Virus record (IMG/VR): IMGVR_UViG_3300038954_000614
Location: 1 to 28,284 of that record
Length of the DNA stretch: 28,284 bases
Strand: one strand, 5' to 3'
DNA from: a virus
Made by a program: the position numbers and the translations under genes
Shown: in pieces, positions 4,377 to 28,046 of the stretch
Layout of the letters: the number at the start of each line of letters is the position of its first letter
Numbering within the stretch: position 1 is the stretch's first letter
Notes under the pieces: generated by a model
Database searches by the model: none
What the model saw: the letters and a program-made list of their open reading frames with translations, nothing else
What the model was told of the DNA's origin: nothing

Positions 4377-4390
4377 TGTTAGTCCTCCTT

Positions 4391-6382: not shown

Positions 6383-6408
6383 TATGAATCTCCTGTATCG
6401 CTTCCCCG

Positions 6409-7122
6409 CTAATACTTTGCCAGCTTGCCAAGCTCGAATAATTCAGGCAAAAAACCAGCCATTTGCGACCAAAACGGCAGGGCAATTTGCCGCATTTGTG
6501 GGTGCGCGGCTTGTGATATTCTTAGCTTGAAAAAATGCCCAAGCTCTCGCAAGTTCATCGTTACGACGACTTCAGTTTTCAAAGAATTGGGAAGAACAGA
6601 ACGGGCTTCCTGGGCGGTAGCGCCACTATCTAATAGGAGCATATATTTTTCTTCAGCCATTTTCATGGCGGTATACCAAACCCAATATTCTTGGCTTTCG
6701 TCCGGGAAAAATGGAGGGCGAATTACTGTAATTTCATGGCCGAATTTCCCGTGAGAATAGTTGCAATATCGGGTTGATTCCTGGCTGTAAGAGGCCAGGC
6801 GGTGACGAACCAATTCATGAGAAACACCCCGGTCACAGACGGCCAAAAACGTAATTGAGTAGTGTTCGATTACTGACAAATGCCCCTTGTCAACGATTTT
6901 ACCTACAAAAGCCTCCAAGGCTTCCAGGTCTTCATCAAAATCGGTTTTGTAACAAGTTTTCCCGGCCATGGTTAAGATTGAATAGATATGGGTTTTGAGC
7001 CTGTCTCTTTCTTCGAAGGCTTCGGTATATGTTTGATAAAGAGCCGGTTCTCTGAGTGCCGCAGAGGGGAAGGTGGGGATGTTGGGATTTATGACTTTGA
7101 TGAACGGTTCAATGATTCTCAT
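6409..7122 (-). CDS. thyX: Flavin-dependent thymidylate synthase
   Basis: I start at ATG 7122, which has GGGGAG 5-10 bases upstream; the frame stays open to 7215 but that extension reads through a strong hairpin. The 237-aa length is normal for ThyX. The signature RHR-x2-S is present at residues 106-111, continuing to SYSQESTRY at 111-119, with HLSVIEHYSITF (81-92) before it as the FAD/dUMP-binding helix and strand. The enzyme methylates dUMP to dTMP using methylene-tetrahydrofolate and FADH2. It would supply thymidylate, or in principle a related 5-substituted pyrimidine, for phage DNA. It lies at the end of the recombination genes, after a leader with a 10-bp hairpin. Confidence 0.93.
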   Translation of the reverse strand: MRIIEPFIKVINPNIPTFPSAALREPALYQTYTEAFEERDRLKTHIYSILTMAGKTCYKTDFDEDLEALEAFVGKIVDKGHLSVIEHYSITFLAVCDRGVSHELVRHRLASYSQESTRYCNYSHGKFGHEITVIRPPFFPDESQEYWVWYTAMKMAEEKYMLLLDSGATAQEARSVLPNSLKTEVVVTMNLRELGHFFKLRISQAAHPQMRQIALPFWSQMAGFLPELFELGKLAKY

Positions 7123-7141
7123 TTTTTCTCCCCTGAAAAGT

Positions 7142-7169
7142 GACCGGGGGCCGACGAAAGCCCCCGGTC
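7142..7169 (-). promoter_or_regulatory. GC-rich hairpin in the thyX leader
   Basis: Bases 7142-7151 and 7160-7169 are perfect inverted repeats (GACCGGGGGC / GCCCCCGGTC) with an 8-base loop. On the - strand it is followed by ACTTTTC and then the thyX ribosome site at 7128-7133. The T tract is too short for a convincing intrinsic terminator, so it may be a weak terminator, an RNA-stabilising hairpin or a translational control element. The rest of 7123-7233 shows no gene. Confidence 0.55.
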
Positions 7170-7233
7170 TGCCACAGGCTAACCACGTAATAGGGTTAGT
7201 ATAGTCTCCATACACGTCAGATTCTTTTTTCTG

Positions 7234-7359: not shown

Positions 7360-7408
7360 CGCGTTAGCTTTTATTTTATTATCGGGTAATTGATCCCAAA
7401 AAGGAAAA

Positions 7409-8026: not shown

Positions 8027-8028
8027 GG

Positions 8029-10032: not shown

Positions 10033-10940
10033 TTTGCTATCTCCTGACCGCAAGTTGGGCAAATGTCGGGCATGGCGGTTTCGAGTTGTTGTTTGGTGGT
10101 TTCATATTCTTGGGTTAGGCTTTTGGTTTTGGCTTGCGTTGTTTTTCGCCTTTCAAGCAGGGCCTTAATCTCTTCCAGGTCATTTTCAGTTGATAGTAGG
10201 GTTTCAAGACTCCCCAAAATGAGTTCGATGGCTGCAAGGGCCTCCTCAATGTTATATTTGCTTACCCTTTCCAGTTCCATTTCGATATTTTTTTTAGATT
10301 CAACCAAGCTGTGCAGTTCGCCTTGAAATTTTTGGCCCTTGAATACAGCCCCCTGTATAGATTCAATGGCTTGCAGCTCGGCCTCGGCGGCCCCTACAAA
10401 TTCCAGCCCTTCTAAGCCCGCCTCCGCTTCGGCGATCTCATCAACCAAATTTTTGATTTCGGCGGATTCGAGCCGGTGTGTTCGATTGATACTTGATAAG
10501 GCGGCATCGACCAAATCCAGATTTATGGCCTGGTTTATTTGCCGGGCAATTTGGCCCGGCGGGTCAGCAAGCAAAAAGGGGCTGTCCATTTGGTGCTGAA
10601 AATTTATCTCCTTGAGGTTTAGGGCCGCCGATACTGCTTCTGGGACTTCCGCCCCCATGTTTGACCACTTTTTGCCATCCAGGGTATACGCGTTCACCTT
10701 TTTGCTTTTTGTTCTGGTTATGGTGCTTTTATCGGTTGTAATCTGGACAACTGCCTGAGACATATCGTGGTTGATAAAAGCCTCCCCGCTTGGGCGGTTG
10801 AAAGTGACAAAGCGCAGAGCCCGGATGATTGCAGTTTTACCGACATTTGATGGGCCGAGGATAAAGTTGATACCCGGATCAAAATCTAACCGGGTATCTT
10901 GATGGCTTTGGAATCCGCTTAGGGTTAGGGATTGTATCAT
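10029..10940 (-). CDS. SbcC/Rad50 N-terminal ATPase half ending at the zinc hook (split gene)
   Basis: ATG 10940 with GGAGG nearby. The 303-aa protein begins with the Rad50 N-lobe: LSGFQSHQDTRLDF, then Walker A GPSNVGKT at 29-36, and NFQHQMDSPFLL near 115-126 (Q-loop side). From about residue 155 it is coiled coil, and it stops six residues after the hook motif CPTCGQE (C294, C297). A normal Rad50 would continue back down the second arm to the C-lobe; here those parts are separate genes at 8029 and 7409, with the nuclease gene between. The stop lies immediately after the hook, so the split looks organised rather than a random truncation. Confidence 0.88.
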   Translation of the reverse strand: MIQSLTLSGFQSHQDTRLDFDPGINFILGPSNVGKTAIIRALRFVTFNRPSGEAFINHDMSQAVVQITTDKSTITRTKSKKVNAYTLDGKKWSNMGAEVPEAVSAALNLKEINFQHQMDSPFLLADPPGQIARQINQAINLDLVDAALSSINRTHRLESAEIKNLVDEIAEAEAGLEGLEFVGAAEAELQAIESIQGAVFKGQKFQGELHSLVESKKNIEMELERVSKYNIEEALAAIELILGSLETLLSTENDLEEIKALLERRKTTQAKTKSLTQEYETTKQQLETAMPDICPTCGQEIAK

Positions 10941-12556: not shown

Positions 12557-13630
12557 TTAAAACCTCCTTTTCCGGTTTGGCTTAAACGCAAGTTCAATCT
12601 CTTCCCAAAGGTCAATGACGGTTGCCTTTAATTCCTCTTCCAGGTTGTGTTCTTCGACATTCTCTATCGCTTTTCCCAGGGTGCCGCCGAGCCTTTCCCT
12701 TCCATCTCCAGATTTGAGCGGGAGGCTAAAATCGCCAAAATATTTTTTGACAAAGAGCAGGTTCTCGGTAAGATCATCCACGCCGTAATCGAATCTGATT
12801 CGGACGGGCGCTTGCCGGTATGGCTTACCTACAGAGGATTTTATCACTTCAATTTCAAATTCTGTTCCGATTGTTTTTGTTGTTTTTACCCCACGAATTG
12901 TTTTCTCGGCCTTGATTTTTTTCACCCAAGTGATTTCCAGCCGAAGGCTGAATTGGTGCAGGGCGGCGCGAGATGCACCTGCTGATTTCGTTTTTTTTGC
13001 CCATGGAGCGGGGGTGATATTATCCCGGATTTGGTTCGAGCACACGGCAAGGACTGATTCTGCCCGGATGATGGGGGCGGTTCGGCGTATTTGATCCGTA
13101 AAAACAGCCGCGCGCCTGGCCCCAGAAAAGCCGCCTTCTGTATCGGGTTCATCAAGGCCAGCGAGGGAATCGATCAAAGCGACGCGGAACGGGGCTTCTT
13201 CTACTTTCCACCCTTCTCTTAGATGCGAAAACGTTTCTATGATCGAGTTTGTGGGTTTGACCGGGTTTTCTGGATATTCAATTTCGGCGTCTCGCCTCGG
13301 GATGTTAAATCCGAATGTTTTGGCAAACGGTGGGTCAAGCCTCCACTCTGTATCATTATACCAGACTTCGGCATTTTCCCGTTGCGCCTGCCCGGCGATT
13401 TGCAGGAGCATTACTGTTTTCCCTGCGCCCTCCGGGCCAAACACTTCAACCATAATCCCCATTGGGAGCCCGCCGCCGCGAATCCTTTCCCCGGAAATGG
13501 CAAGGTCTAATAATGTCGATCCTGTCGACATTACATGGCTGAAATCGCCGTCGTATTCGGGGCGGGAGGTGGAGTTCATATATTCGTCCATCTGATCGCG
13601 GAGCGGTTGTGCAGGTTTTGTCCTTCTCAA
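12557..13630 (-). CDS. recA: RecA/UvsX-type recombinase
   Basis: The protein has the RecA core: FSHVMSTGSTLLDLAISGE, Walker A GPEGAGKT (residues 65-72 from this start), VALIDSLAGL as Walker B, the L1/L2 regions with AVFTDQIRRTAP and the SNQIRDN motif followed by SAGASRAALHQFSLRLEI. It coats single-stranded DNA and drives strand exchange. I favour TTG 13630, which overlaps the upstream TGA as TTGA and has AAGGA seven bases ahead; the same overlap style is used by the clamp-loader gene. An ATG at 13654 is the alternative but has no spaced ribosome site. The C-terminus is basic (KPNRKRRF) rather than acidic as in bacterial RecA. Confidence 0.9.
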   Translation of the reverse strand: MRRTKPAQPLRDQMDEYMNSTSRPEYDGDFSHVMSTGSTLLDLAISGERIRGGGLPMGIMVEVFGPEGAGKTVMLLQIAGQAQRENAEVWYNDTEWRLDPPFAKTFGFNIPRRDAEIEYPENPVKPTNSIIETFSHLREGWKVEEAPFRVALIDSLAGLDEPDTEGGFSGARRAAVFTDQIRRTAPIIRAESVLAVCSNQIRDNITPAPWAKKTKSAGASRAALHQFSLRLEITWVKKIKAEKTIRGVKTTKTIGTEFEIEVIKSSVGKPYRQAPVRIRFDYGVDDLTENLLFVKKYFGDFSLPLKSGDGRERLGGTLGKAIENVEEHNLEEELKATVIDLWEEIELAFKPNRKRRF

Positions 13631-13881
13631 AGCCCTTTCCTTTCTTCTTCCCATCTTTCGAGCAATTTTAAGGCCTCGGGGTCATTTTCTCTCAACCCCT
13701 TTAATGCGATGAGAAATTTTTGTTTGTGAAAATAGACTGGGCTGGTTTTTCCTTTGCCCGTGATTTTTCTCCCCAGCCCATACCGCTTGGCCCACGATAG
13801 GATTGTAGCACGAGTCACGGGATGGCCCCGTGACTCGGCCAGCCCTATCGCTTCATTTGTGCGAATGAGGGCGTCTTGCAT
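13627..13881 (-). CDS. Small HTH DNA-binding protein (84 aa)
   Basis: ATG 13881 with AAGGGG upstream, two bases after the SSB-like gene. Residues about 8-35 form a helix-turn-helix of the excisionase/MerR-like kind (EAIGLAESRGHPVTRATILSWAKRYGLGR), followed by a likely wing (KGKTSPVYFHKQKFL) and a helical end (EALKLLERWEEERK). It may regulate the operon or act on DNA structure. Its coding sequence carries an 11-bp perfect inverted repeat at 13811-13837. The stop overlaps the preferred RecA start. Confidence 0.65.
   Translation of the reverse strand: MQDALIRTNEAIGLAESRGHPVTRATILSWAKRYGLGRKITGKGKTSPVYFHKQKFLIALKGLRENDPEALKLLERWEEERKGL
13811..13837. repeat. 11-bp perfect inverted repeat within the HTH gene
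   Basis: CGAGTCACGGG at 13811-13821 pairs with CCCGTGACTCG at 13827-13837 over a 5-base spacer. It encodes the ESRGHPVTR segment of the HTH. It could form a stable hairpin in the mRNA or serve as an operator. Confidence 0.8.
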
Positions 13882-13883
13882 TA

Positions 13884-15134
13884 TTACCCCTTTAGGCGCT
13901 CCATTTCCAAGGCGCAGTTGTCGAATACTTCATCGGGGCAGGTTTCGCAGTCTTCGGTTTCGTTGCAATCCTTACCGAAAGTGTGCCCGGCCGGGCAGGT
14001 GCCGCTTTCGCCTTTGGCGGCCGGTTTGTCTTTGTCTTTCACCTTGCCTTTGGCGGCCGGTTTGTCTTCTCCCTTGCCTTTGCCCTTGCCTTTGCCTTTG
14101 GCGGCCGGTTTGGGTTTGGGCGGCGCGAGGCCATAAGACTGGAGGGTGGCCCAATGTTCCGGTTCGAATTTTTCCTCGTCGCTTTCGTCGAGGGGTTCAT
14201 CGCTTGTGATTGTTTGGAGCTGCGCGATGATTCCGTCCTCGCCTTGGTCGCTGTCGAAATCCTGCTCGACGTCCAGGCCATAATAGACAACCACGGCCAG
14301 GGCGGCATTGATTAATTCGCTGTCGCTGTTGTCGTCGCTGTTGTCGTCGCTGTTGTCGTCGCTGTCCGGCTCTCGGACATAGGGGTGGTGTTCATCGTCG
14401 TCATCATCGTCATCCGAGGGGGCACCTTCGAAAATTTCCTTGATTTCGCCGTAAGTCGGCTTCCGGACCATTTGGTCCAGAGGAAATGCGGCCTCTACCT
14501 GGGCGAGTTCAGGGCCTTTCCATTCGAGAATTTGGAAGGATTTATACCGCAGGAATTTGTTCTTGTTGAAGGTGTCTTCTTCCCCCCGAAATTTAATACC
14601 GACCGCGCTGAGGTCGCGCACCCCTTCGGCGACGGCTTCGCTGTAGGCTTCACGCTCGAAGAAATACCTGTTCGCGCCGAAAATCGCGGGCTTGGCGTTT
14701 TTATCCTCCAAGTCCACCACGTTATAATAAACGATAGGGTTGGGCGCGACCCCGATTTCCTTGGCGGCGTCTTTGTCCGGGAGAGTGCGAACGTATTCGC
14801 AAATGGGGCAAGCCTCCCCAAATGTTTTTGCCAGGCAAATAACCCTTTCGCTGTTCACCCCGATGTTTTTGTGGTGATAAATCTGGATTTTCGTCCAGAA
14901 TTCCCCCCTTTTGACCACGGTTTCATCGGCGTAGCCATATCGGCCCAACACCCCCGAAACTTTGAAGGGGACAAGCCCGATTTTGTATCGTTGCCCGGCT
15001 TCCGTTTTGAAAAATTTGACGTCTTTGTGGCCGGATAAATCAAGGAACCCTGGCCCCCGTTCACTGGACCGGGACTCCTGCTCTTGTTTTGCCCGCATCT
15101 TGGCCAGATAGGCTTCATACTCTTTTTTGTTCAC
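13884..15134 (-). CDS. Single-stranded DNA-binding protein, T4 gp32-like, with acidic and Gly-Lys tracts
   Basis: GTG 15134 with GGGGGG upstream. The core (residues about 28-230) has SGHKDVKFFKTEAGQRYKIGLV and a zinc set H87-x12-C100-x8-C109-x2-C112 (CPICEY), nearly the spacing of T4 gp32 (H-x12-C-x9-C-x2-C), then YYNVVDLED as in phage SSBs. The C-terminal half is unusual: an Asp run and SDDN repeats near 240-275, an acidic segment to about 345, then GKGKGKGKG and two more PAAKG copies, and a last Cys-rich segment (CPAGHTFGKDCNETEDCETCPDE). The acidic part parallels the SSB tail that recruits partners. Lying between the mediator candidate and RecA, it fits replication and recombination. Confidence 0.78.
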   Translation of the reverse strand: MNKKEYEAYLAKMRAKQEQESRSSERGPGFLDLSGHKDVKFFKTEAGQRYKIGLVPFKVSGVLGRYGYADETVVKRGEFWTKIQIYHHKNIGVNSERVICLAKTFGEACPICEYVRTLPDKDAAKEIGVAPNPIVYYNVVDLEDKNAKPAIFGANRYFFEREAYSEAVAEGVRDLSAVGIKFRGEEDTFNKNKFLRYKSFQILEWKGPELAQVEAAFPLDQMVRKPTYGEIKEIFEGAPSDDDDDDDEHHPYVREPDSDDNSDDNSDDNSDSELINAALAVVVYYGLDVEQDFDSDQGEDGIIAQLQTITSDEPLDESDEEKFEPEHWATLQSYGLAPPKPKPAAKGKGKGKGKGEDKPAAKGKVKDKDKPAAKGESGTCPAGHTFGKDCNETEDCETCPDEVFDNCALEMERLKG

Positions 15135-15537: not shown

Positions 15538-15660
15538 TCACCTGTATTTATCTTTCTCAGCGAACCAGGACTTCGCAACGGCCATGGCCCCAATTCGGCA
15601 GAGGATATAGAAAAGAAGAAACCCCCCGGCCGCGAGGGGAATATACATTAAGAGCTTCAT
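15538..15660 (-). CDS. Very small membrane protein (40 aa)
   Basis: ATG 15660 overlaps the upstream TGA as ATGA. One hydrophobic helix (LLMYIPLAAGGFLLFYILCRIGAMAVA) and a short charged tail. The AAAGGC repeat at the end of the preceding gene provides an AAAGG ribosome-site-like sequence. Function unknown. Confidence 0.5.
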   Translation of the reverse strand: MKLLMYIPLAAGGFLLFYILCRIGAMAVAKSWFAEKDKYR

Positions 15661-16205
15661 TTTTTGCCTTTGCCTTTGCCTTTGCCTTTGCCTTTTTCTT
15701 CTTTGCCGTATTTTTCGGCCATGGCCTGCTTTTGGCCCGATTCCATTTCCCGGGCAACTTGGCGGTCGAGGGTCCACCTGCGGCCGGGCTCAGTTTCAAC
15801 CCCTAATTCCGGCCCCGCCCAATATTGAGCCAAAAGGGTTTGGACCGCCAACTCAAGGGAGGTCCTTTTCCGCCGGATAGTTTCCAGCGCGATCTTTGCG
15901 TCGTTGAGGTCTTTTTTGGCCTCTACGACTTCATCTTGTGCGTCTTGAACGGCTTTATTGACGGAAACGGCCGAAGCGATAACCGCTTCGGTCACTTTGG
16001 GCAAGTCGTGCCCGTCCGGGTCTTGTCTGATATCCAATTCCACCTCCGCCCTTGTCCGTTCAAGGCGGAGTTGCGCTTTGTCAAAAGCGTTTTGGGCTTG
16101 GCTTTCATGGAGGCCGTAGGCGTAAACCTGGTTCGGATATCGGAAAATGTCTTCCGCCAGTTGCCAAGGATCCACTCCCAAATCTTCTTTGAAATTCAAC
16201 TCCAT
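15657..16205 (-). CDS. Probable recombination-mediator-like helical protein with Gly-Lys tail (182 aa)
   Basis: ATG 16205 with AGGAGG. Residues 1-35 (LGVDPWQLAEDIFRYPNQVYAYG) lead into a long helical region (AFDKAQLRLERTRAEVELDIRQ, KVTEAVIASAV, AVQDAQDEVVEAKKDLNDAKIALETIRRKRTSLELAVQ). This pattern (helices with KxTEAxI and a late RR-x-x-LE) is common in phage proteins next to SSB genes and sometimes annotated as UvsY-like mediators that load the recombinase. I infer that role from pattern and position. The last 12 residues are a Gly-Lys repeat (GKGKGKGKGKK) like those in the SSB-like and 24370 proteins. First gene after a candidate promoter. Confidence 0.6.
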   Translation of the reverse strand: MELNFKEDLGVDPWQLAEDIFRYPNQVYAYGLHESQAQNAFDKAQLRLERTRAEVELDIRQDPDGHDLPKVTEAVIASAVSVNKAVQDAQDEVVEAKKDLNDAKIALETIRRKRTSLELAVQTLLAQYWAGPELGVETEPGRRWTLDRQVAREMESGQKQAMAEKYGKEEKGKGKGKGKGKK

Positions 16206-16258: not shown

Positions 16259-17185
16259 TTATGTAACCGCTTGCCGACAACAAGCGACGAGCTTTCCCCA
16301 TCCACTATGGTAGAATGCCTCTGACGAAAAAATCGCCAGGTTAATGTCAGCCTGGGCCGGGGGATTATCGCTGCCCAAAATTACGGAAGTGTTGTAACCC
16401 ACAATAGCCAGCCGTATTTTTTCGGGGTCTTCTTTTTTTTGCAATCCCTTGATAATATCTTTTACCTTTTTCCAGCTACCCTTTTTTAAGAGCAGCCGAC
16501 AAAGGTCGATGACTTCCGGGATTTCCTCGGCTTTTTTGAAATCATAATTCATGATTTCCCGCTTTGATAATCCAACCAGGTTGTTCATCCAGACCAGGAG
16601 CTCCCTGGGGGACCCTTCAGCGGCCGAGATTAAATTGTCAAGGGCTTTCGATGGGACTTGTAACCCGATCTGTTCAGCGGTCCGATTTGCGAGCTCCATG
16701 AGTTCATCGGATGTCAACAATTCCAACTGATAGATTTGGGTCCGGCTCTTCAGTGGCGCAATGACCTTTTTGGGTTCGGTTGTGCAGAGAAAAAAGAAAA
16801 TCCTGGGCGGAGGCTCTTCAGTGGCTTTGAGCAAGGCATTTTGAAAGCCTTTGCTTGCCATATGGACTTCGTCCAGGATGATCGCCTTGTTCTCCCGCTT
16901 GCTCATCAGCGGGTGCGAGTTAAGAGATTCAAGGATTTCTCTGGCGGCTGAAACCCCGCTTTCGTTGCCAACGTTTACCTCTTGCTGAAAGCAGTCAAAT
17001 TCTCGCGCGAGAATGCGAGCCGTTGTAGTTTTCCCGCATCCCCTGGGGCCATGGAATAGGTAGCTGTGGGGTGGGTCTTCCCCGGAATTGAAAGCCTTGA
17101 CAAATGACCGTAAAGAGCTTGTCATACTCTTGTTTCCGATGATTTCATCAAGGGTTTGCGGCCTAAAATCGGTATGCAACTTCAA
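16259..17185 (-). CDS. Clamp loader ATPase (DnaX/RFC/gp44-like)
   Basis: TTG 17185 overlaps the polymerase stop as TTGA, with AAGGGG upstream. The 308-aa AAA+ protein has FRPQTLDEIIGNKSM, Walker A GPRGCGKTT (46-54), ILDEVHMASKGFQNALLKATEEPP (Walker B DEVH at 105-108 and the arginine-finger helix region), sensor 1 LCTTEP and LKSRTQIYQLE in place of the SRC box. It lacks the zinc module of bacterial DnaX and has the length of gp44/RFC small subunits. It opens and loads the sliding clamp on primed DNA, probably as a homo-oligomer since no second loader subunit is seen here. Confidence 0.88.
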   Translation of the reverse strand: MKLHTDFRPQTLDEIIGNKSMTSSLRSFVKAFNSGEDPPHSYLFHGPRGCGKTTTARILAREFDCFQQEVNVGNESGVSAAREILESLNSHPLMSKRENKAIILDEVHMASKGFQNALLKATEEPPPRIFFFLCTTEPKKVIAPLKSRTQIYQLELLTSDELMELANRTAEQIGLQVPSKALDNLISAAEGSPRELLVWMNNLVGLSKREIMNYDFKKAEEIPEVIDLCRLLLKKGSWKKVKDIIKGLQKKEDPEKIRLAIVGYNTSVILGSDNPPAQADINLAIFSSEAFYHSGWGKLVACCRQAVT

Positions 17186-20100
17186 AATTTTTCCCCTTTC
17201 GCGAAGTCTATTGTTCTAATGAAGTTTTCAATCCCAGCCTGGAACAGTGGGCGGTTTGCCTTTTCGTTTCTCAAAACAGAGCTCGGGTGGACACACCAAC
17301 AAACCCACGCCTTCAATGCTGGCAGGTATTCTGTCTTACCGCTGCGCTTTGTAATGCCGCCCTTTTCCCCGGTCAGGGCTTGTAAGGGGATGTTCCCGAA
17401 TGAAAGGATGATTGGTGATTCAAGCAGTTCAACCTCCTGCTTGAGCCATGTAAAGCAGGCTTCAATATGCTCCGCCTTGGGGGTCTTGATTTGGCCGGGG
17501 TAACATTTGCAAGTGTTGCTAATGTGAAAATGCCGCCTTTCCCACCCATATGGGGCTATTTCTTTCCAAACCAAGTTGCCAGCGGGGCCGATAAATGCCT
17601 TACCTGATTTGTCTTCCACCCGCCCGGGAGCCTCCCCGAGGACCATGGCGTTATATATTCCCGGGTGCAGCGGGATTGGGCGGCGGCATTGATTATAGAG
17701 CTCGCATTTGTCGCATCGTTTTGCTTCTGGCAAAGAGCGCCTTATCCTGACAAGCTGTTGCTCCGCAATGTGCCCGCCGGGAAACTTAAAATCAAAGTAG
17801 CTTAAGGCCTCACTTGGCAAGTCAACAAGGCTCCTATCATAGGCTCCGATATTTTCCATGATTTGGTTGAGCTTTTTGTTTTTTAAAGGCTGAGAACCCC
17901 CGCCTTTCTGGCCCTTTAAGAACCCCGTTTTTTTGCTTTTGGGAGCTTGGAGGCTACATTGACCAGCGGTTTTTTCTCCCACACCCTTGATTTCAATGAA
18001 AGGGCAAACAAGCTGCCCGCCGTTGACCTCCCATTTGAAAGGGTCAGAAAGGCCAATTTTGGGGGGGATAATTTGTAAGCCCAGCCTGGAGGCTTCCTCT
18101 AAGAGCTCCTCTTTTTGGGATTCTTTCCCGCAAGTCAAGGCGGCGCAGATAAATTCCTGAGGATAATTTACTTTCAACCAAGCTGTCCAATACCCAATAA
18201 GAGCATATTCAACAGAGTGAGCTCGGTTGAAGGAATAATGGGCATGGTTCTTAAGGTCTTCCCAAAACCGGGTGGCCTGTCCCAGGGTGATCAATTCTAA
18301 CTCTTCAGCCCCTTCCAGAAATTTTTTCCGATATGGTTCCAGCTTGGCCGGGTCTTGCTTTTTTGCCAAGATTTTCCGAATCTTGTCGGCTTCTGAGAGT
18401 GTCATCCCGGCCAGCCTATGAAGAAATTGCATAACCTGTTCCTGATATACAATAAGGCCGAAGGTATCATAGGTGATTCTATCATATTCGTAAATTTCAC
18501 CATGGCCATTCCAGCCACTGCCATGTCGCCTCTCGATATATTGGTCCGCCACCCCACTATCGGCCGGGCCGGGCCGGACCAAGGCGATTGCGGCCACCAT
18601 ATCCGCAAAATTCCTTGGCTGGAGCTTTTTTGCCAAAGAGGTCATGGCATAAGTTCCCCACTGAAAAATACCGGTTGTTTCCCCTGCAGATAGGGCGTCA
18701 AAAACCTTCTGATCGTCAAGTGTAATATGGTCCAGGGCTTGCCCGGCGGGGGAAAGATAAACCGACTCGTCGGAGTCCTCAAAATCGAAAAAATAAGAGC
18801 AGCTTTCGGGGTGATAGTAAAATCCATCTCCCCGGTTTTTTTCTATCAACTGTAGGGTTTCTGATAGGATTGACAAGGTGTTTAACCCCAGAAGGTCTAA
18901 CTTTATCAACCCCATGTATTCGGCGTCTTCCATATCCCAATTAACAAGTATTTCTTCCCGACGCTTACAAAGGTGCCCACGGCCAGAATTTTGGATTGGC
19001 TCTGGCGAAATAACGACTGCCGCCGCGTGTTGAGAGGCGTGTCGGGCCTTGCCTTCCAGCATTGCAGAATGAAAAATAACTTTGGGGAATTTGTCGGCGA
19101 AAAATTTTCCTTCGCCTTGAGCATGGGTCAAGACGACCATTCCTTTGTTTTCGTCCTCGTATTTTATACCCTTGGCAAACTCGTCTATTTCGCTAAATTG
19201 GATATCAAGTTCCCTGTCGAAAACGCGGGCCACGTCCCGAATAACTGCCTTCCCCTTCATCCTCCCAAATGTCGAAATCCCCGCAACACAATCTTTGCCA
19301 TAGGCCGATTCGAGGTATTGTTTAACGGCCCCCCGTTTGCGGTCTTCAATGTCAATGTCGATGTCTGGCCAATCGTTACGGTCCGCAGAAATAAACCGCT
19401 CAAACACAAGGTTATGCTTGATGGGGTCTACCTTTGTTATCCCCAAACAGTATGCCACCAAAGACCCGCCTACTGATCCTCGGCCTGGGCCAACCCAAAT
19501 CCCAGATTTTCGGCACCATAAGATCAAGTCCAAGACAATTAAAAAATACCGGGAAAACCCCTTTTCCTCGATTATAGATAGCTCATGTCGAAGGCGGGAG
19601 CCATATTCGTCCATGGCAAATTCTGGGATTGGAAGGCGCTCTAACCCCTCTTGGGCTAAAGATTCGAGCTCTTTCTGGTCAGCCCCCGGCCCTTCTGCTT
19701 TGTTTGGATTATGTTGGCTCATAGGCGGGGAGGGTAATCGGCTTTTCTTCTGGGCCAAGGTGAACCCGGAGCATTGCTTTGCAATCCGCATGGAATTCCT
19801 GGCTCCAGTCACGATTTCCCGGTTTGTCCAAAACCCTTGGCGATCAAACGCCTCTTGCATTTCTTCATATGACCGAAGATGAAGGCCAGTAAACCCAAAA
19901 CGGAAGCGATCTGGGTCATCCCATTTGCGCCTTGTTTGTATTGCCAGGAGGACCTCTTGGCTTTCCCAATCTTCTTTGTGGGCGTAGTGGCAGTCGTTGG
20001 TAATAACCAATGGAAAATTGCCTTGAAACTCTTCAATGGTTTTGTTTAAAGAATTTTGGGCTGGGATATCATGCGGCATGATTTCCAGGTAAAGCGGGGT

Positions 20101-20571
20101 GTTGTGGTCTTTCATTTCCCAGGCGAGGTTTTGGAGGTCTTCATTCCGCAAAAATGACCCGGCGCAGGCGCTTCCGAACACAAGGCCAGTGCGATTTTTG
20201 ATATGCTCCATCAACAGGCCAGAATCTATTCTGGGCCGCTTATAGAACCCTTCTGTGTGGGCCTTGGATAGCATATAGCAGAGGCTATTCCAGCCGTCCT
20301 CATTTTCAATCCAAATGGTAATGTGGCGTCGAATTTCTTTTTCTTTTTTATACCGGTTTGGAACAAGATAAGCCTCGCACCCGAAGATGGGAGTTATTTC
20401 GTTTTCATGGCACGCCCGTTGAAATTTGATCAAGCCGTCCAGGCTTCCATGGTCTGTGCACCCGAGGTATTCAAACCCCATTTCCTTGGCGCGGGCCGCA
20501 TATTCGGCGGCGGTGCCCAGCCCATCCAATAGGCTATATTCGGTATGTAGGTGCAAATGGCAGAACCGCAT
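17182..20571 (-). CDS. DNA polymerase III alpha (family C) fused to a family 4 uracil-DNA glycosylase
   Basis: ATG 20571 with AAGGGG. Residues 1-200: PHP domain (HLHLHTEYSLLDGLGT, TDHGSL). Residues about 330-830: DnaE polymerase core with GPGRGSVGGSLVAYCLG (361-377), WPDIDIDIED (catalytic D403, D405), IKLDLLGL (D559), ALVRPGP and YQEQVM. HhH IKGVGEKTA at 861-869. The usual OB-fold and C-terminal clamp region are missing; instead, after a Lys/Gly linker, residues about 935-1129 form a UDG4: C953, C956, GEAPGRVEDKSGKAFIGPAG (979-998), C1021/C1023, C1039 for the 4Fe-4S cluster, and HPSSVLRN (1095-1102). One reading frame, no stop between domains. It would copy phage DNA and excise or sense uracil. 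Confidence 0.93.
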   Translation of the reverse strand: MRFCHLHLHTEYSLLDGLGTAAEYAARAKEMGFEYLGCTDHGSLDGLIKFQRACHENEITPIFGCEAYLVPNRYKKEKEIRRHITIWIENEDGWNSLCYMLSKAHTEGFYKRPRIDSGLLMEHIKNRTGLVFGSACAGSFLRNEDLQNLAWEMKDHNTPLYLEIMPHDIPAQNSLNKTIEEFQGNFPLVITNDCHYAHKEDWESQEVLLAIQTRRKWDDPDRFRFGFTGLHLRSYEEMQEAFDRQGFWTNREIVTGARNSMRIAKQCSGFTLAQKKSRLPSPPMSQHNPNKAEGPGADQKELESLAQEGLERLPIPEFAMDEYGSRLRHELSIIEEKGFSRYFLIVLDLILWCRKSGIWVGPGRGSVGGSLVAYCLGITKVDPIKHNLVFERFISADRNDWPDIDIDIEDRKRGAVKQYLESAYGKDCVAGISTFGRMKGKAVIRDVARVFDRELDIQFSEIDEFAKGIKYEDENKGMVVLTHAQGEGKFFADKFPKVIFHSAMLEGKARHASQHAAAVVISPEPIQNSGRGHLCKRREEILVNWDMEDAEYMGLIKLDLLGLNTLSILSETLQLIEKNRGDGFYYHPESCSYFFDFEDSDESVYLSPAGQALDHITLDDQKVFDALSAGETTGIFQWGTYAMTSLAKKLQPRNFADMVAAIALVRPGPADSGVADQYIERRHGSGWNGHGEIYEYDRITYDTFGLIVYQEQVMQFLHRLAGMTLSEADKIRKILAKKQDPAKLEPYRKKFLEGAEELELITLGQATRFWEDLKNHAHYSFNRAHSVEYALIGYWTAWLKVNYPQEFICAALTCGKESQKEELLEEASRLGLQIIPPKIGLSDPFKWEVNGGQLVCPFIEIKGVGEKTAGQCSLQAPKSKKTGFLKGQKGGGSQPLKNKKLNQIMENIGAYDRSLVDLPSEALSYFDFKFPGGHIAEQQLVRIRRSLPEAKRCDKCELYNQCRRPIPLHPGIYNAMVLGEAPGRVEDKSGKAFIGPAGNLVWKEIAPYGWERRHFHISNTCKCYPGQIKTPKAEHIEACFTWLKQEVELLESPIILSFGNIPLQALTGEKGGITKRSGKTEYLPALKAWVCWCVHPSSVLRNEKANRPLFQAGIENFIRTIDFAKGEKF

Positions 20572-20573
20572 CT

Positions 20574-21344
20574 TTACCCCTTATTGTAAGCCTGTTTCCA
20601 GGCGATGTTTACGTCAACCCGTTCATCCCCGATTCCTTCCCATGCCTTTTTGCTTTTTTTGATTTTGATTTTTACAAGGCCGGGGTGGAGGACTTGCAAG
20701 GCCTGGGCGGCTTTTCTTTGCATATCCCAAGTTCGGTATAAAGAACATCCGCCTTCGGCCCCGCTTTGGCCTTGCCCCCAAGCGTAATCGTAAGTCACCC
20801 GGTTCTTATATCCCTTCCGAAGTAGCTGAAGGGTAAGGTCAAAATCTTCCATCACTTTAAGTCGGTCGAAGCGGCCGCCAACTTCTAAAATTTCCTTTGA
20901 CCGAAAAGCATACACGTTATTCATCCTTGTGGTTTCGACGAAGGGGGATTTGATTCGATTGTTCCCGGCCCGTTGACTAACTCCGACATGCAGAAACCCT
21001 TCATCAAGCCAGGATTCAAGCAAATCAAACATTTTTTCGATATCCGATGGGGTGGCTTTTTTCAGCGCAACCCCGTCTCCGGTCCGAGCGGAAAACGTCA
21101 TATCGTCATCTAACATACACACCTTGGGTTGGAAATTTTCCAGCACCCATTGTCTGGTGGCGGCAACCCCCTGGACTGCGGCTGGGCAGGAAATCACCTG
21201 ACAATCTTTTTTCCACTTCCGGTAAACCAGCCGGTCTTCTTTTCGGACGACGAGGAAAAGCCGCCCCCTCAGCGAATTTATTGGCATGGCTTTTAGGGTG
21301 GGTTGTTTGTCTGGCCTACCTGCCGACGGTATCACGATATACAT
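20574..21344 (-). CDS. Glycosyltransferase, TET-associated (TAGT) type
   Basis: ATG 21344 with GGAGG ahead of it. The 256-aa protein matches the phage family called TET-associated glycosyltransferases: MYIVIPSAGRPDKQPTLKAM at the start, GVAATRQWVLEN (59-70), the metal/sugar-nucleotide DDDM (79-82), HVGVSQRAGNN, VMEDFDLTLQLLRKGY (164-179), GGCSLYRTW (198-206) and LHPGLV near the end. The family was proposed to add sugars to oxidised or otherwise modified bases in phage DNA. No TET/JBP gene is visible here; the neighbours are a radical SAM enzyme and a Cys-containing protein, which may make the acceptor group. Target and sugar are unknown. Confidence 0.75.
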   Translation of the reverse strand: MYIVIPSAGRPDKQPTLKAMPINSLRGRLFLVVRKEDRLVYRKWKKDCQVISCPAAVQGVAATRQWVLENFQPKVCMLDDDMTFSARTGDGVALKKATPSDIEKMFDLLESWLDEGFLHVGVSQRAGNNRIKSPFVETTRMNNVYAFRSKEILEVGGRFDRLKVMEDFDLTLQLLRKGYKNRVTYDYAWGQGQSGAEGGCSLYRTWDMQRKAAQALQVLHPGLVKIKIKKSKKAWEGIGDERVDVNIAWKQAYNKG

Positions 21345-21345
21345 T

Positions 21346-21831
21346 TTATATCCTCCATCCTACGATTGCAATGTGGCGGCACGTTTTCATGTGGCGGATT
21401 GAGTCTAATTTTAGCTCAGATTTAAACGCGGTTGCATAGAGGTGGACGCCATAGGATTCCCCCATAGCAATGATTTTGTTGGCTTTGATTCGTTTGGCGA
21501 ATTCGATGGACCGCTCTTTCATTTGTTTTCTTGACCGCGATTGCCAATAGAGCACGTTGCGAAGCTGGCGCTCAGACCAATGAGGGTGTTTTGTTCTCAT
21601 TTTTTCAACGTGCCCAGCCAAGTCAAATTCTGAGAAAACCAAATAGCAAGGCTGGGTCAGGTCAAGTATTTCTGTAATATATGGCGTGTTGTAGGGGCAT
21701 TTTGCTTTCCCTGGTTTGTCAAAATTCGGGCACCCCTTCGGGTGGCCGGGGTATGGTAGGCCACACCAATCTTTGACCTTTGGGTGGTGAACAAGCTCTT
21801 TGACTTCTACAACCCAAGGCGGAGTGGTCAT
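21346..21831 (-). CDS. Cys-containing protein paired with the radical SAM gene (161 aa)
   Basis: Start at ATG 21831, overlapping the radical SAM stop as ATGA. Residues 20-50 read WCGLPYPGHPKGCPNFDKPGKAKCP with three Cys in a DUF2284-like arrangement that could hold metal, followed by YLVFSEFDLAGHVEKMRTKHPHWSERQ, a helix with RNVLYWQSRSRKQMKERSIEF, then KIIAMGESYGVHLYATAF and a His at the end. No known catalytic set. Strict coupling on both sides (radical SAM before, glycosyltransferase after) suggests a shared pathway. Function unknown. Confidence 0.6.
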   Translation of the reverse strand: MTTPPWVVEVKELVHHPKVKDWCGLPYPGHPKGCPNFDKPGKAKCPYNTPYITEILDLTQPCYLVFSEFDLAGHVEKMRTKHPHWSERQLRNVLYWQSRSRKQMKERSIEFAKRIKANKIIAMGESYGVHLYATAFKSELKLDSIRHMKTCRHIAIVGWRI

Positions 21832-23249
21832 TTGGTCAGGTCGATACCTTCTTTGATCCATTCTTTTTCATACTCCATCGGCATATATTTGAAAATAAAA
21901 TTGCCGTCGCCGTCTAACCCAACCGGGGCGAGTTTCCCGTGAAAATAATTCCGGGGGTTCGCCGGTGACCGGAGATTATTCCAATGTTCTTGAAGGAAAG
22001 CCCTTTGAGACATGTTTTGTCTTTCGGCATTGCACCGACCTATCACTCCCACATGGTCCTGGGCAAATCTCCAATCGTCGAGATATTTTTCTTTACCAAA
22101 AGTGGTTCCAAAATGGAGGTATTGGTCCTCGCCTGTTAGGTGGTATTTTCGCCGGCATTCCTTGAGATGATATGTAAGCTGAGATTTAGTCCAATTCTCC
22201 AATCCAGGATTTTCCGGATAATGGGCGGGCATCCCGCAACAAGACCCGCTCATGTTCAGCTCTTTGAAATCTGGGTCACTACATGAGAAAACGATCCCAT
22301 TTTCTACGCAAAATCGATACATGAGTTTAATGCTGTTTTCCTTTACTTGCCGGTTCAGTCGCATGTAGCCGCCCCGCTCATGCGGTGATAATGCCGAGAA
22401 GTATTTAATCAGCCCCTGAGAGCCCCCTTTGACCCCCACCAGATGAGAGATCCATTCATACCGTTTTTTCATGCCTTCGTTGGACCGGGCGTCAAGGGCA
22501 AAATATTCCGTAGAAATTGCCGAAATGCCAGCGTCTCTCGCCCGCTCTAATAGCCCCAAAAGGCCATCATCTGTAATCCCGTGGATAAATGGCCTTAGTC
22601 TCAAGATGGTCCAATACCCAAGCCCGCTTAGCCGCTCAATGGCCCTCAGTCTGATGGAAGTTGGCGGCACTCCAATCTCAATTTTTTTAGACATTTCGTC
22701 TGATGGACTGACGATGCTGATTTGGAAGGCAAAGTTTTTTTGTTGAGCGGCCCCTTTCCAAATTGGCATGTATTCTCGATATGCTGTGCCTTTAAAGGAA
22801 AACAAGCATGGGTAATTCTCGCTGGCCAAGGCCTCTATTAGGGGTTTGCCTGCCCGGTTCGTTCGTTCAAAATTGCAAAAAGGATCTGCCAAACCACCCC
22901 AATGTAAGACGAATTTATGCTGCAAAAAATTATCATATAACAGTTGCCAACGAGAACCGGGCGGGTTCCCTTGAATTGCTTTTGCCATAGCAGAAGTGTC
23001 AACAGATTTCAGTTGCATTTCTGCCATGGCCGGGTTGTTGCTCTTGAAAAAGTAAGCAAAACAATATTGGCAACCTAACGAGCAGTAAGAATATTGGTCA
23101 AATGTCATGGGCATAGAGCAGTCCATAATCTCGCTGCTAATTCTGGGGGAGCTGTATCCGGGCGCGGCTTTGACTTGTGTGTTGCTTTCAACCCACTCCC
23201 GGTTTTCTTCTTTAATCTCCCGCTGTAAAACTTCCAGACTTTTCGTCAT
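21828..23249 (-). CDS. Radical SAM enzyme, spore-photoproduct-lyase-like
   Basis: I choose ATG 23249 (AAGGAAAG upstream); a TTG at 23270 would add seven residues. The 473-aa protein has the cluster motif C56-x3-C60-x2-C63 within FDQYSYCSLGCQYCFAYFF, the arrangement of SplB-like radical SAM proteins, then WGGLADPFCNFER and a TIM-barrel pattern (FQISIVSPSDEMSKKIEIGVPP, TILRLRPFIHGITDDG). More Cys in the second half (FCVENGIVFSCSDPDFKELNMSGSCCGMP) may hold an auxiliary cluster. It would generate a 5'-deoxyadenosyl radical; substrate unknown. Options: repair of a pyrimidine photoproduct or modification of a DNA base or nucleotide, supported by the adjacent glycosyltransferase. Confidence 0.8.
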   Translation of the reverse strand: MTKSLEVLQREIKEENREWVESNTQVKAAPGYSSPRISSEIMDCSMPMTFDQYSYCSLGCQYCFAYFFKSNNPAMAEMQLKSVDTSAMAKAIQGNPPGSRWQLLYDNFLQHKFVLHWGGLADPFCNFERTNRAGKPLIEALASENYPCLFSFKGTAYREYMPIWKGAAQQKNFAFQISIVSPSDEMSKKIEIGVPPTSIRLRAIERLSGLGYWTILRLRPFIHGITDDGLLGLLERARDAGISAISTEYFALDARSNEGMKKRYEWISHLVGVKGGSQGLIKYFSALSPHERGGYMRLNRQVKENSIKLMYRFCVENGIVFSCSDPDFKELNMSGSCCGMPAHYPENPGLENWTKSQLTYHLKECRRKYHLTGEDQYLHFGTTFGKEKYLDDWRFAQDHVGVIGRCNAERQNMSQRAFLQEHWNNLRSPANPRNYFHGKLAPVGLDGDGNFIFKYMPMEYEKEWIKEGIDLTK

Positions 23250-23550
23250 ATTCCAGCTTTCCTTCTTCAAGCGCCTTTAAAAAATCGACAAGCATCTCCA
23301 GTTTATAGCACGAGTTCTCGACGTATGTAGACACGGAAAAGTGGTTAGAGAACAGGTTGACTTCCGCCTCACTTTTGAAGACGAGGCGAACAGTTTGTTT
23401 CTCCATGGGTTTTTTTGCCTTCAGCGGGGGCTCTGGCCCCACGTATTTTTTTAGTTTGGCCGGGCGCAAGTTGGCTTGTTCAAAATCCCGCGTTTCTTCC
23501 TTAGAAAGGCCCTTCGGAACCTTTGTCTTTTTTGGGGAGAGAAATGCCAT
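23212..23550 (-). CDS. Hypothetical protein (112 aa)
   Basis: ATG 23550, four bases after the previous stop with GGAAGAA as weak ribosome site. The N-terminal 50 residues are Lys/Pro-rich (SPKKTKVPKGLSKEE, PPLKAKKPMEKQ), the rest a compact domain (VRLVFKSEAEVNLFSNHFSVSTYVENSCYKLEMLVDFLKALEEG). No catalytic residues are evident. It overlaps the radical SAM start by 38 bases. Possibly a small clamp- or DNA-associated protein; not recognised. Confidence 0.55.
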   Translation of the reverse strand: MAFLSPKKTKVPKGLSKEETRDFEQANLRPAKLKKYVGPEPPLKAKKPMEKQTVRLVFKSEAEVNLFSNHFSVSTYVENSCYKLEMLVDFLKALEEGKLEYDEKSGSFTAGD

Positions 23551-25207: not shown

Positions 25208-26488
25208 TTATTCCCCTGAAGGCGGGGGGTCTGGAATGAATTTCCATTTTACGCCCCCATTGTTACTTTCAAGCCGGAGCCCGAATGAGAGCGCCACCTT
25301 GCCGGGGGCTAAATTCCTTGCCTTTTCAAACGAAATGTTCACCCCCTCTTCTGCCTTCTTTTTCTGTTGAAGGTGAATTACGGTGTCCATTGGGTCAGAA
25401 TGCCCGCTTGTTCCCCGCTGTTTCCTATTCTTCCCGGCATGGTGGATGACAATGACAGCCAGCCCAAGATGGCGAAGCGATAAAAGCCATTGATTGATGG
25501 GGTCCCATTCTTTTTTGTCGTTCTCATCTCGGCCGGGGGTGAGGGAAGAAAGGTTGTCTATAATGATCACTTTGATCCTTGGCCGCTTGGCAATATACTC
25601 ATAGATGGAGTCCCGCCATGATTGGTGCGTAAGGTCGATTTGTTTCCTGGAGATTTTGGCGTGGCGATTTGCAGAGAATAGCACAAGAGGAGCCCGAATA
25701 TTCGCCTCTTCCCCATAGGCTTTCAATAATCCTTGGAACCGTTCTTGGATGGCATGCTCCCCCATTTCTCCATCGATATACAACACTCCGGCGGGGTTGT
25801 TTACGGTCCAAAGGCCGATTTCGGTTTCATCCCAATTTTTTCTTGTCAGGCCAACGGCGATGGCCATTGCCAACCACGTTTTGCCCGCTCCGGGGGCGGC
25901 GAATATCATGTTCAGGCTGTTGGCATTCAGCCAGGGATCCAGCAGTCGCTTTGGGACCGCGATGTTTTCGGAGACAAATTTCTGGCATTCAATGGCGGAT
26001 TTGGCGAACTCTTTTTCAAGGGAGACAGCTCCAATTGACTCCATATCCAAAAAGAGCTTTTCAGCCTCATCATATTTGCCCGCCTTGCGTAGCTCATTGG
26101 CGGCGTTGATTGTATCTTCCAGTTGAGACGACCGGAGGTATTCAAGCGCCCTTTGAAACTCAAATTCCGGGTGGAAATCAGCCTCGGCTGATAGGTATTG
26201 TCGGTTTAAGTTTTCGAGGACCTGCTCGAGAATATCGGCTTCGCCCTTAAAAACCTCGCCTTTGTTCTGGGCGTCTTCCCAGATTTGCAAAATTGCGGTT
26301 TTTGGGGCCTCTTGGAATTTATTCCAATGTTGAAGGCACCAATGAATAACCCGGTTAATCCCGTTTGCGCGGAACAATTCGGGGCGGTGAACGCGGCTGT
26401 ATTCTGCCAAAAAATCGTCGCTAACAATACAGCCAATTGCTATTTGTTTTTCCTTCTCAACATAATCCGGGTTTGACAATTTAGGCAT
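25208..26488 (-). CDS. Replicative DNA helicase, DnaB/RepA (AAA_25)-type
   Basis: ATG 26488 with GGAGGGGG inside the end of the initiator gene. Residues 5-115 form a DnaB-like N-terminal helical domain (EKEKQIAIGCIVSDDFL, RPELFRANGINRVIHWCLQHWNKFQEAP). The motor has Walker A AAPGAGKTWLA (197-207), GVLYIDGEMGE (H1a-like), VIIIDNLSSLTPG (Walker B, about 302-314) and VIVIHHAGKNRKQRGTSG (H3/H4) with ALSFGLRLE near the end. It should unwind the phage fork as a hexamer. It follows the initiator, matching the initiator-helicase order of many phages. Whether a primase is fused or encoded elsewhere: none is visible here. Confidence 0.85.
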   Translation of the reverse strand: MPKLSNPDYVEKEKQIAIGCIVSDDFLAEYSRVHRPELFRANGINRVIHWCLQHWNKFQEAPKTAILQIWEDAQNKGEVFKGEADILEQVLENLNRQYLSAEADFHPEFEFQRALEYLRSSQLEDTINAANELRKAGKYDEAEKLFLDMESIGAVSLEKEFAKSAIECQKFVSENIAVPKRLLDPWLNANSLNMIFAAPGAGKTWLAMAIAVGLTRKNWDETEIGLWTVNNPAGVLYIDGEMGEHAIQERFQGLLKAYGEEANIRAPLVLFSANRHAKISRKQIDLTHQSWRDSIYEYIAKRPRIKVIIIDNLSSLTPGRDENDKKEWDPINQWLLSLRHLGLAVIVIHHAGKNRKQRGTSGHSDPMDTVIHLQQKKKAEEGVNISFEKARNLAPGKVALSFGLRLESNNGGVKWKFIPDPPPSGE

Positions 26489-27920
26489 ATGTTACCCCCT
26501 CCCAATGCAACGTGACTAACCCCGGATCGCCAAAATATTCGTCGCAGTTATCCGCGATCATGAATTTCCACGATTTGTGACGCGGGCCTACCCCTCGGAC
26601 GCTTACTGTAATTTGATCCAGGTCTCTTCTTTCTTCGCACCATTCGGCATATGTCTTGGCAACTGTTACGGGATCATGGAAGGCCATAATCCCGGCGAAT
26701 TTGCGGTAATAGATATCTTCGCTTGCCCGGCAATAACGATCCGCCCAAGCTGACCACTGTATGATATCTCGTGTCACGCGATAGAGAGCCTGCAATTCGG
26801 CTCCTTGCGGGTTGGGGTCGCTAATACAACCGCGCAGATAGTTCGTTATTTCCGGATTTGGGTCTTCTGTGATTTTTGTGAAGTCGTGCGGATTGTCAGA
26901 GGCGGCTATTTTTAGGAACCAACTCGTTACTCCTGATGGGTGGGTGGGATTGTATAGCATAGATAGGAGGCTTACCTTCGAGCGGAACCCCATTTGGGAT
27001 ATGGTGTCCAGTATTTCTTTGATTTCGTTGGCGGTCCATTTTTTCTTAGCCAATGAAATTGGGATGTTTTCTTCCTTGCAGAATTTACGCAAGGCCTTTC
27101 TGGAGGTTATGTATGTGCCGTTGGCCATGCTGTTAAGGATTTTTACGGTTTCTTTGTATGTCTTTGTTTCTTTGTTTGTGTGGCGGCAAATTGCATTGCC
27201 TGGGGAGCTTTTGTTTGGACTGTAGAGGCTATTCCAAAATTGGATAATCCTGTGGGCAAATGGGAGGGGTTCGCTGGGCTGGGTTTGTATGGGGGGATTC
27301 CCGTTGGTTGGAGGTTCGGGTTCCTCCCCATCCGATTCAGAGGAGGGGCTTGCCCCCTCCCCTATGAAATAATAATATGAAATATTATTATGAATAGGTG
27401 GAATACACCCTACGCTCGTAGGGTGTATTTTTGTGTCTCTAATTTCAGTCACTTGCGAATCTGGCTGGGTTTTCGCCCCCCCGTCCGTAGGGTGTATTTT
27501 TTTGAGCCGGGCGGGAATTTTATTTTCCGGCCCATAGTGGTGGTTTAAGAAGATTCTGCGATATTTTGATTTTTGATTTTGGATGATGATCAGCCTGTTG
27601 TCTGTCAGTTCTTTTAGGTGCTTTTCTACTGCTTTTACCCCCAGGCCAATGACGCGGCCCAAATATTCGTTGGTGGCTGTGCAGCCCTTTTCTGAGATTT
27701 CAAGCTGGTTTATGGCTGCCAGCAGCAGCATTGTTGATTGGGAAAAATCGCTTCGGAGCCATAGGATGGGGACAGTTAGGTATTTTGACATTTCTTCCGG
27801 GGGCATAGAGGGGTTTCTCTGGGTGCGGTTGTTGCGGCCGTCTGGCGTTTTGGTTCGTTGGTCAACCGCCAGCTTTTCTCTCATTTTTTGGATTTTGGTT
27901 TGATTTTCTAAATAGGCCAT
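26481..27920 (-). CDS. Replication initiator candidate, winged-helix protein with iteron-like repeats in its gene
   Basis: ATG 27920, with GGAGGT four bases ahead; the open frame continues to 28040 but that part is the structured leader. Residues about 44-115 are a HTH_36-type winged helix (LTVPILWLRSDFSQSTMLLLAAINQLEISEKGCTATNEYLGRVIGLGVKAVEKHLKELTDNRLI), as in RepA/lambda-O-like initiators. A low-complexity linker (residues about 130-225: KIHPT repeats, Pro/Ser/Glu-rich) follows, encoded by DNA with iterons. The second half is a helical domain (FRSKVSLLSMLYN, SGVTSWFLKIA, RVTRDIIQWSAWADRYCRASEDIYY) of unknown family. It sits ahead of the helicase gene and could recruit it to the origin. Confidence 0.6.
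   Translation of the reverse strand: MAYLENQTKIQKMREKLAVDQRTKTPDGRNNRTQRNPSMPPEEMSKYLTVPILWLRSDFSQSTMLLLAAINQLEISEKGCTATNEYLGRVIGLGVKAVEKHLKELTDNRLIIIQNQKSKYRRIFLNHHYGPENKIPARLKKIHPTDGGAKTQPDSQVTEIRDTKIHPTSVGCIPPIHNNISYYYFIGEGASPSSESDGEEPEPPTNGNPPIQTQPSEPLPFAHRIIQFWNSLYSPNKSSPGNAICRHTNKETKTYKETVKILNSMANGTYITSRKALRKFCKEENIPISLAKKKWTANEIKEILDTISQMGFRSKVSLLSMLYNPTHPSGVTSWFLKIAASDNPHDFTKITEDPNPEITNYLRGCISDPNPQGAELQALYRVTRDIIQWSAWADRYCRASEDIYYRKFAGIMAFHDPVTVAKTYAEWCEERRDLDQITVSVRGVGPRHKSWKFMIADNCDEYFGDPGLVTLHWEGVTYA
27369..27503. repeat. Iteron-like repeats and AT-only palindrome (candidate replication origin)
   Basis: The 16-mer CGTAGGGTGTATTTTT occurs at 27417-27432 and 27486-27501, and its inverted 13-base form at 27402-27414, so copies one and two make a hairpin with 12-13 bp arms. 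Next to them, 27369-27378 and 27382-27391 are a perfect 10-bp AT-only inverted repeat (ATAATAATAT/ATATTATTAT). The set lies inside the linker of the initiator candidate gene. Iterons beside an AT-rich block inside the initiator gene is the layout of the lambda origin. Confidence 0.6.
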
Positions 27921-28046
27921 GGATACCTCCTGTTTTGAGGTGTAAGGGAGCCCCTTGAAAGAAACAGACCCGCCTACCGGGGAGGCGGCGGCAGACAAGG
28001 GGCCGGGATAACCCAACACCGACGGCCAATCGGTGCCCACCCTGAA
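27921..28046 (-). promoter_or_regulatory. Structured 5' leader with mutually exclusive helices
   Basis: About 125 bases of leader between the promoter and ATG 27920. Perfect helices seen: 28030-28035/28017-28022 (6 bp); 28016-28020/27939-27943 (5 bp, GGTGT with ACACC); 27997-28003/27950-27956 (7 bp, GCCCCTT); 27983-27988/27970-27975 (6 bp); and 27937-27941/27925-27929 (5 bp, ACCTC with the GAGGT of the ribosome site). The last competes with the second, and the first competes with the second, so the leader could switch between open and closed ribosome site. Confidence 0.45.

Follow-up and report, generated by a model that had tools for sequence, protein, structure and literature searches.

A family C polymerase that ends in a uracil-DNA glycosylase domain

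We analyzed a whole virus record of 28,284 bases, which may itself be a fragment and is called the window below. It carries a replication block with an initiator, a helicase, a polymerase, a clamp loader, a small conserved protein, a probable single-strand DNA-binding protein, UvsX, SbcCD-like genes, and ThyX (Table 1). The polymerase gene lies on the minus strand (the earlier note named none). That note had read from it a DnaE polymerase and a family 4 uracil-DNA glycosylase (UDG) in one frame. This was borne out: all the motifs it quoted were found, and Pfam, NCBIfam, and AlphaFold agree.

Table 1. Replication genes of the window and domains of the fusion polymerase (positions in the window)
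Feature	Position	Strand	Basis or remark
Replication-initiation-like protein	26481..28040	minus	
DnaB-like helicase or primase-helicase ATPase	25208..26488	minus	
DnaE-UDG4 fusion polymerase P0001	20571..17182	minus	Single open frame, 1129 aa, ATG start
PHP domain, residues 5-136	20164..20559	minus	Pfam PF02811 3e-30; checked metal-ligand-type positions retained
PolIII alpha catalytic domain, residues 301-562	18886..19671	minus	Pfam PF07733 (DNA_pol3_alpha) 1e-75; D405, D407, D559
Finger domain, residues 610-757	18301..18744	minus	Pfam PF17657 2e-41
Candidate clamp-binding motif SYFDF, residues 924-928	17788..17802	minus	Between HhH region and UDG domain
Family-4-type UDG domain, residues ~945-1126	17194..17739	minus	Fe-S cysteines, pocket residues, Pfam, predicted fold
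Clamp loader ATPase gene	16259..17185	minus	Overlaps polymerase gene end by 4 bases; Pfam DNA_pol3_delta2 1e-18; PHROG clamp loader 3.5e-57; homologues in 11 related loci
Conserved small protein of replication block	15657..16205	minus	Homologues in 15 related loci; PHROG category unknown
Probable single-strand DNA-binding protein	13884..15134	minus	PHROG ssDNA-binding 4e-5; homologues in 18 related loci
UvsX/RecA-like recombinase	12557..13654	minus	Pfam RecA 3e-23; PHROG UvsX 4e-33
ThyX-type thymidylate synthase	6409..7215	minus	Pfam Thy1 5.5e-46

P0001 has the PHP, PolIII alpha, and finger domains and the three aspartates of a family C DNA polymerase. Its score against the NCBIfam model TIGR00594 (polc) is 727.9 bits, which passes the cut-off of 434.35. 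Among 28 aligned polymerases, the catalytic aspartates D405, D407, and D559 are identical throughout, and the PHP positions that we checked are retained almost universally. The AlphaFold model of P0001, made with 28 relatives as input, has a mean pLDDT of 87. In this predicted model residues 1-937 resemble PolIII alpha structures (Z 35-44), and the nearest solved structures are bacterial PolIII alpha.

The C-terminal tail matches the Pfam UDG family (PF03167) at residues 975-1109 with an E-value of 4.3e-25. It also matches the NCBIfam model TIGR00758 (UDG_fam4) at residues 953-1109 (3.9e-26), where P0001 scores 91.8 bits against a whole-protein cut-off of 125.3. Judged by sequence, the domain is family-4-like but divergent. 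Residues 944-1126 of the AlphaFold model superpose on family 4 UDGs with Z 22.6-23.6 and 1.9-2.7 Å. The nearest solved relative of the tail is a Thermus family 4 UDG; against 1ui1, the predicted model gives Z 23.4 and 1.9 Å over 179 residues. The four Fe-S cysteines C953, C956, C1023, and C1039 align to C13, C16, C84, and C100 of 1ui0, and the pocket residues E980, E986, F993, N1019, and H1095 correspond to its E41, E47, F54, N80, and H155. Thermus F54 and N80 are the counterparts of F55 and N82 in the Sulfolobus enzyme, where F55 is described as stacking on the base and N82 as reading it (PMC11078745). Each Fe-S and active-site position tested in P0001 is thus intact and the predicted fold matches family 4, in agreement with the initial description of the tail as complete-looking. 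The same fold (Z about 23), four Fe-S cysteines, and pocket are found in standalone enzymes of the family (Thermus 1ui0, Thermotoga 1vk2, Sulfolobus 4zby). The tail differs from them in being fused to a polymerase, in its identity of 29-34%, and in falling under the NCBIfam subfamily cut-off. We also considered UdgX, whose hallmarks we take to be a GEQPG motif and a KRRIH loop. P0001 has GEAPG, lacks a KRRIH insertion between C1023 and C1039, and scores 88 bits against TIGR03914 (cut-off 189.95), and we rejected this identity.

Since the polymerase aspartates, PHP positions, Fe-S cysteines, and pocket residues are all kept, both ends of P0001 look functional at the sequence level. In this phage-like virus, the replicative polymerase and a C-terminal Fe-S UDG domain form a single chain.

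The fusion recurs in independent contigs

The fused architecture was found in dozens of other virus contigs. Scanning with the window protein gave seven relatives: six carry both domains in a single frame, and the seventh, L005, has them in overlapping frames. A scan based on polymerase motifs contributed 14 additional fused loci, not counting one duplicate, and also seven tail-less forms. The UDG-motif scan returned 80 loci, with both domains in one frame in 67 and an interruption by the contig end in 7. Loci partly recur between these three scans, i.e., the sets overlap. The same fusion, adjoining a clamp loader, is present in a Syntrophaceae metagenome contig. The fusion is thus genuine, since it occurs in many independent contigs. 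An assembly join or a frameshift between two genes is already refuted and retains practically no probability: nothing counted for it, L005 alone having its parts in overlapping frames, and the architecture recurs in 22 further loci from the whole-protein, polymerase, and bacterial-genome scans, as well as in the 67 loci above (overlapping sets).

Some loci depart from the usual gene structure. In L005, the core (4287-6968) and the UDG tail (6871-7980) overlap, which may reflect a sequencing error or a programmed frameshift giving short and long forms. The DnaE-UDG frames of L008 (5926-14352), L166, L187, and L191 reach about 1700-2800 aa, probably because of inteins within the polymerase.

Linker, OB fold, and clamp

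Around 60 residues separate the polymerase core from the UDG domain; the OB fold is missing and no OB domain was detected in P0001. Some DnaE variants without OB are already known (PMC3919608), and P0001 is such a variant rather than an exclusion from family C. Its linker holds the sequence SYFDF, which resembles a clamp-binding motif and may act as one; [YL]FxF-like forms of it are found in most relatives. Five tail-less DnaE proteins of about 900 aa (L032-L036) have FIF as their exact C-terminus, at the same place. The UDG domain had been said to stand in place of both the OB fold and the clamp-binding tail. The first half holds, as the OB fold is missing, but the second is doubtful, as SYFDF remains as a candidate. 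Six longer relatives (L004, L006, L007, L031, L038, L042) have an extra ~120 residues before the UDG domain. Among them only L006 gave a weak Pfam OB match, and an OB domain in these proteins was not confirmed by profile comparison with unfused phage DnaE tails, by a PDB profile search, or by a low-confidence model (pLDDT 62).

We found no clamp-like gene within the 28 kb window. In close relatives, a gene that lies upstream of the polymerase and encodes about 340 aa matches beta clamps as a profile (2e-18). This highly divergent beta-clamp family, for which PF00712 stays below the cut-off, includes L021:4650-5696, L026:2199-3206, L003:4820-5833, and others. Given the clamp-like gene in the relatives and the clamp loader gene after the window polymerase, the tail probably does not replace the clamp. 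Hence, the suggestion of a processivity module is weakened insofar as it meant a substitute for clamp function.

Origin of the tail and relation to known systems

The polymerase cores of UDG-bearing viruses group together at support 98, with the seven tail-less polymerases nested inside, and a fused-only clade excluding the latter was rejected (p 0.004). The clade therefore probably acquired the tail early, and some members lost it later. The UDG domains of the window clade form one clade (100/99), apart from standalone UDGs and family A fusions. With UDG domains grouping at 100/99 and cores at 98, tail and core appear to have been inherited together. A second clade comprises phage-plasmids and two cultured phages with degenerate tails. 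Its cores are adjacent to those of the window clade with a support of only 37, and a joint UDG clade was not rejected (p 0.226).

The architecture is a rare design that has been known since 2013, and the novelty first attributed to it does not hold. Timinskas, Kazlauskas and Venclovas described a DnaE variant (DnaEX) with a PF03167 domain replacing the OB and CTD regions (PMC3919608). P0001 shares with this DnaEX-UDG variant a UDG superfamily domain placed after PHP-Pol3-HhH, with OB and CTD missing; its PF03167 domain, too, stands in their place on a family C polymerase. The literature search for DnaE-UDG fusions after 2013, of partial coverage, returned nothing. The degenerate relatives that we inspected are phage-plasmids of Cupriavidus, Aeromonas, Klebsiella, Acinetobacter, and Providencia and the phages RHph_N1_15 and ZY21. 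Host range and gene order suggest that the phage-plasmid clade is probably the class of Timinskas et al. In the clade of phage-plasmids, RHph_N1_15, and ZY21 the active site is degenerate and the Fe-S cysteines are partly or wholly lost, whereas the window clade retains the cysteines and, mostly, the active site. In the Aeromonas and Klebsiella phage-plasmids (L103:4010-8204, L104:3992-7595) the DnaE gene is broken into two pieces within the finger region, and in Aeromonas these flank a NUMOD4 gene. The C-terminal piece carries the annotation of a uracil-DNA glycosylase family protein.

A UDG superfamily domain is also built into viral replicases of family A, at the N-terminus, as in PaBG gp205 (PMC7412058) and in further cases, phiLo (9qhs), LysYB1, and PMBT14. 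These fusions differ from P0001 in polymerase family and in domain order, which is reversed, as the earlier note had pointed out. Its view that the two kinds of fusion are independent agrees with these differences, but the UDG tree is indecisive (AU p = 0.36) and family A UDGs are not firmly grouped with the window clade. In vaccinia, too, a UDG is linked to a viral DNA polymerase: D4, which works with A20 and the E9 polymerase (PMC3946371, PMC4450493). Unlike the tail, D4 is a separate protein of another UDG family and serves a family B polymerase; it takes the place of a clamp, whereas the window clade has a clamp-like gene.

Conservation and decay of the tail

To describe the conservation of the tail, we used 22 UDG-bearing members, among them the window but neither of the two cultured phages, from the whole-protein or polymerase-based scans, which did not single out UDG motifs. 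Every member keeps all four cysteines. The pocket residues E41, E47, N80, and H155 (1ui0 numbering) are all kept in 14, and at least one is lost in the remaining 8, each of which keeps every cysteine. This difference shows a stronger constraint on the Fe-S site than on catalysis within the window clade. For comparison, among 70 distinct domains from the UDG-motif scan, a set biased toward intact motifs by the way it was selected, all 70 retain the cysteines and 61 retain the four pocket residues. In four pairs, the amino-acid-changing distance of the tail was about as large as that of the core or somewhat larger, and synonymous sites were nearly saturated. Both tail and core appear to be under purifying selection, with dN/dS limited by these saturated sites. 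The tails of phage-plasmids have lost cysteines to varying degrees, partly or wholly, so some DnaE-UDG proteins can do without the cluster; degenerate tails are nonetheless retained in these elements and in the two cultured phages.

Repair and modification genes

None of 19 fused records has a second UDG, and 13 unfused plus 4 tail-less ones lack any UDG. A dUTPase is missing from all 11 fused records tested and from 12 of 13 unfused phage records, and no EndoIV-type AP endonuclease lies above the cut-off in 16 records. Because many of the records are fragments, these absences are weak evidence. The SbcC-like gene of the window (7409-10940) is apparently split, with its N-terminal ATPase part before the SbcD-like phosphoesterase gene and its C-terminal part well after it; L004 and L042 also have a separate SbcC N-terminal part.

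A TAGT-type glycosyltransferase gene (20574-21344) sits immediately upstream of the polymerase, and a radical SAM gene at 21828-23270 shares 54% identity with a radical SAM gene upstream of the L023 fusion. Together they look like an exchangeable DNA-modification cassette. TAGT was found in only one other of the 26 records tested, one without a UDG tail, and is absent from the 10 other fused records. No thymidylate-synthase-type hydroxymethylase above the cut-off was found in any of the 26 records. The co-occurrence of TAGT, thymidylate-synthase-type, and ThyX genes with the tail revealed no association.

What the tail may do

In complexes of PolIII alpha with DNA, the OB domain is close to the single-stranded template. 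If positioned there, the tail could reach the template. We propose that it serves the replicase as an accessory domain in contact with DNA, still able to sense uracil and, in the window protein, probably to excise it; we give this proposal about an even chance. Scanning for uracil and template binding, two of the roles suggested in the earlier note, belong to this reading that we favor. The UDG domain would lie beside the polymerase core, at the position of the DnaE OB domain, hold on to DNA on its way into or out of the active site, and there flip out and bind uracil. As the pocket is kept in most of the clade, recognition, and probably excision, of uracil would still be useful to most members. 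The DNA-contacting structural role would be primary and the glycosylase chemistry secondary, because the pocket decays in some members and the Fe-S scaffold never does in the window clade. The tail would work alongside the clamp and clamp loader, not in their stead. The seven nested tail-less polymerases count against this proposal, since they imply that the domain is dispensable. Dispensability, the mostly kept pocket, the lack of downstream repair genes, and the decay in side branches together fit a DNA-contacting domain to which uracil sensing, and probably excision, was added. Excision would have to rely on host repair, as no EndoIV-type AP endonuclease passed the cut-off in 16 records, and removing a template base at the fork would be harmful, which argues for binding without cutting. 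That this family C replicase has a built-in, catalytically live uracil sensor checking DNA at the fork is a more tentative idea, and we doubt it somewhat. If true, such a sensor would be an independently evolved bacterial-virus counterpart of the pocket with which archaeal family B polymerases read ahead for uracil.

The tail might instead serve co-replicative repair, mainly excising misincorporated or deamination uracil and so offsetting an absent viral dUTPase. We consider this rather unlikely. The tested active-site positions are intact in the window and in 14 of the 22 members, neither a dUTPase (11 fused records tested) nor another UDG was found in fused viruses, and the window encodes ThyX, all of which would suit a repair enzyme. 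But the other 8 members lost at least one of the four pocket residues while keeping all cysteines, and no AP endonuclease above the cut-off accompanies the tail in 16 records. Moreover, phages with this polymerase type seem to manage without either enzyme, since 12 of 13 unfused phage records lack a dUTPase and 13 of 13 a UDG.

Still less probable, in our view, is a purely structural module: a dead glycosylase fold that, much like poxvirus D4, only holds DNA or partner proteins to aid processivity or assembly. Against it, the pocket has stayed intact in the window and in most of the clade, beyond what drift alone would allow, and relatives encode their own clamp. Such a module would account for Fe-S cysteines that outlast the catalytic residues and for the degenerate tails that persist in phage-plasmids and cultured phages. 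D4 offers a precedent, as it acts in processive synthesis independently of catalysis (PMC1936997, PMC4450493, PMC3946371).

The least credible role is that of a modified-base reader telling the virus's modified DNA from host DNA, which we regard as highly improbable. It was suggested by the TAGT and radical SAM genes upstream of the polymerase, by family A polymerases with an N-terminal UDG-like domain, which often adjoin thymidylate-synthase-type genes, and by the phiLo polymerase, solved with a modified template (9qhs). As a general explanation it fails on the rarity of TAGT, missing from the 10 other fused records, and on the lack of a thymidylate-synthase-type gene above the cut-off in 26 records.

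Significance

What is new here is a separate virus clade of DnaE-UDG polymerases with an intact Fe-S site and a mostly intact active site, together with two trends in the window clade: catalytic residues have decayed repeatedly while every cysteine was kept, and the entire tail was secondarily lost in some members. Attached UDG domains recur on unrelated viral replicases, of family A, family B (via D4/A20), and family C. The clade provides a graded natural series on one polymerase, from an intact pocket, through a decayed pocket with Fe-S cysteines, to the loss of the tail. This series makes it testable whether the domain is a glycosylase for repair, a sensor of uracil, or a mere grip on DNA.
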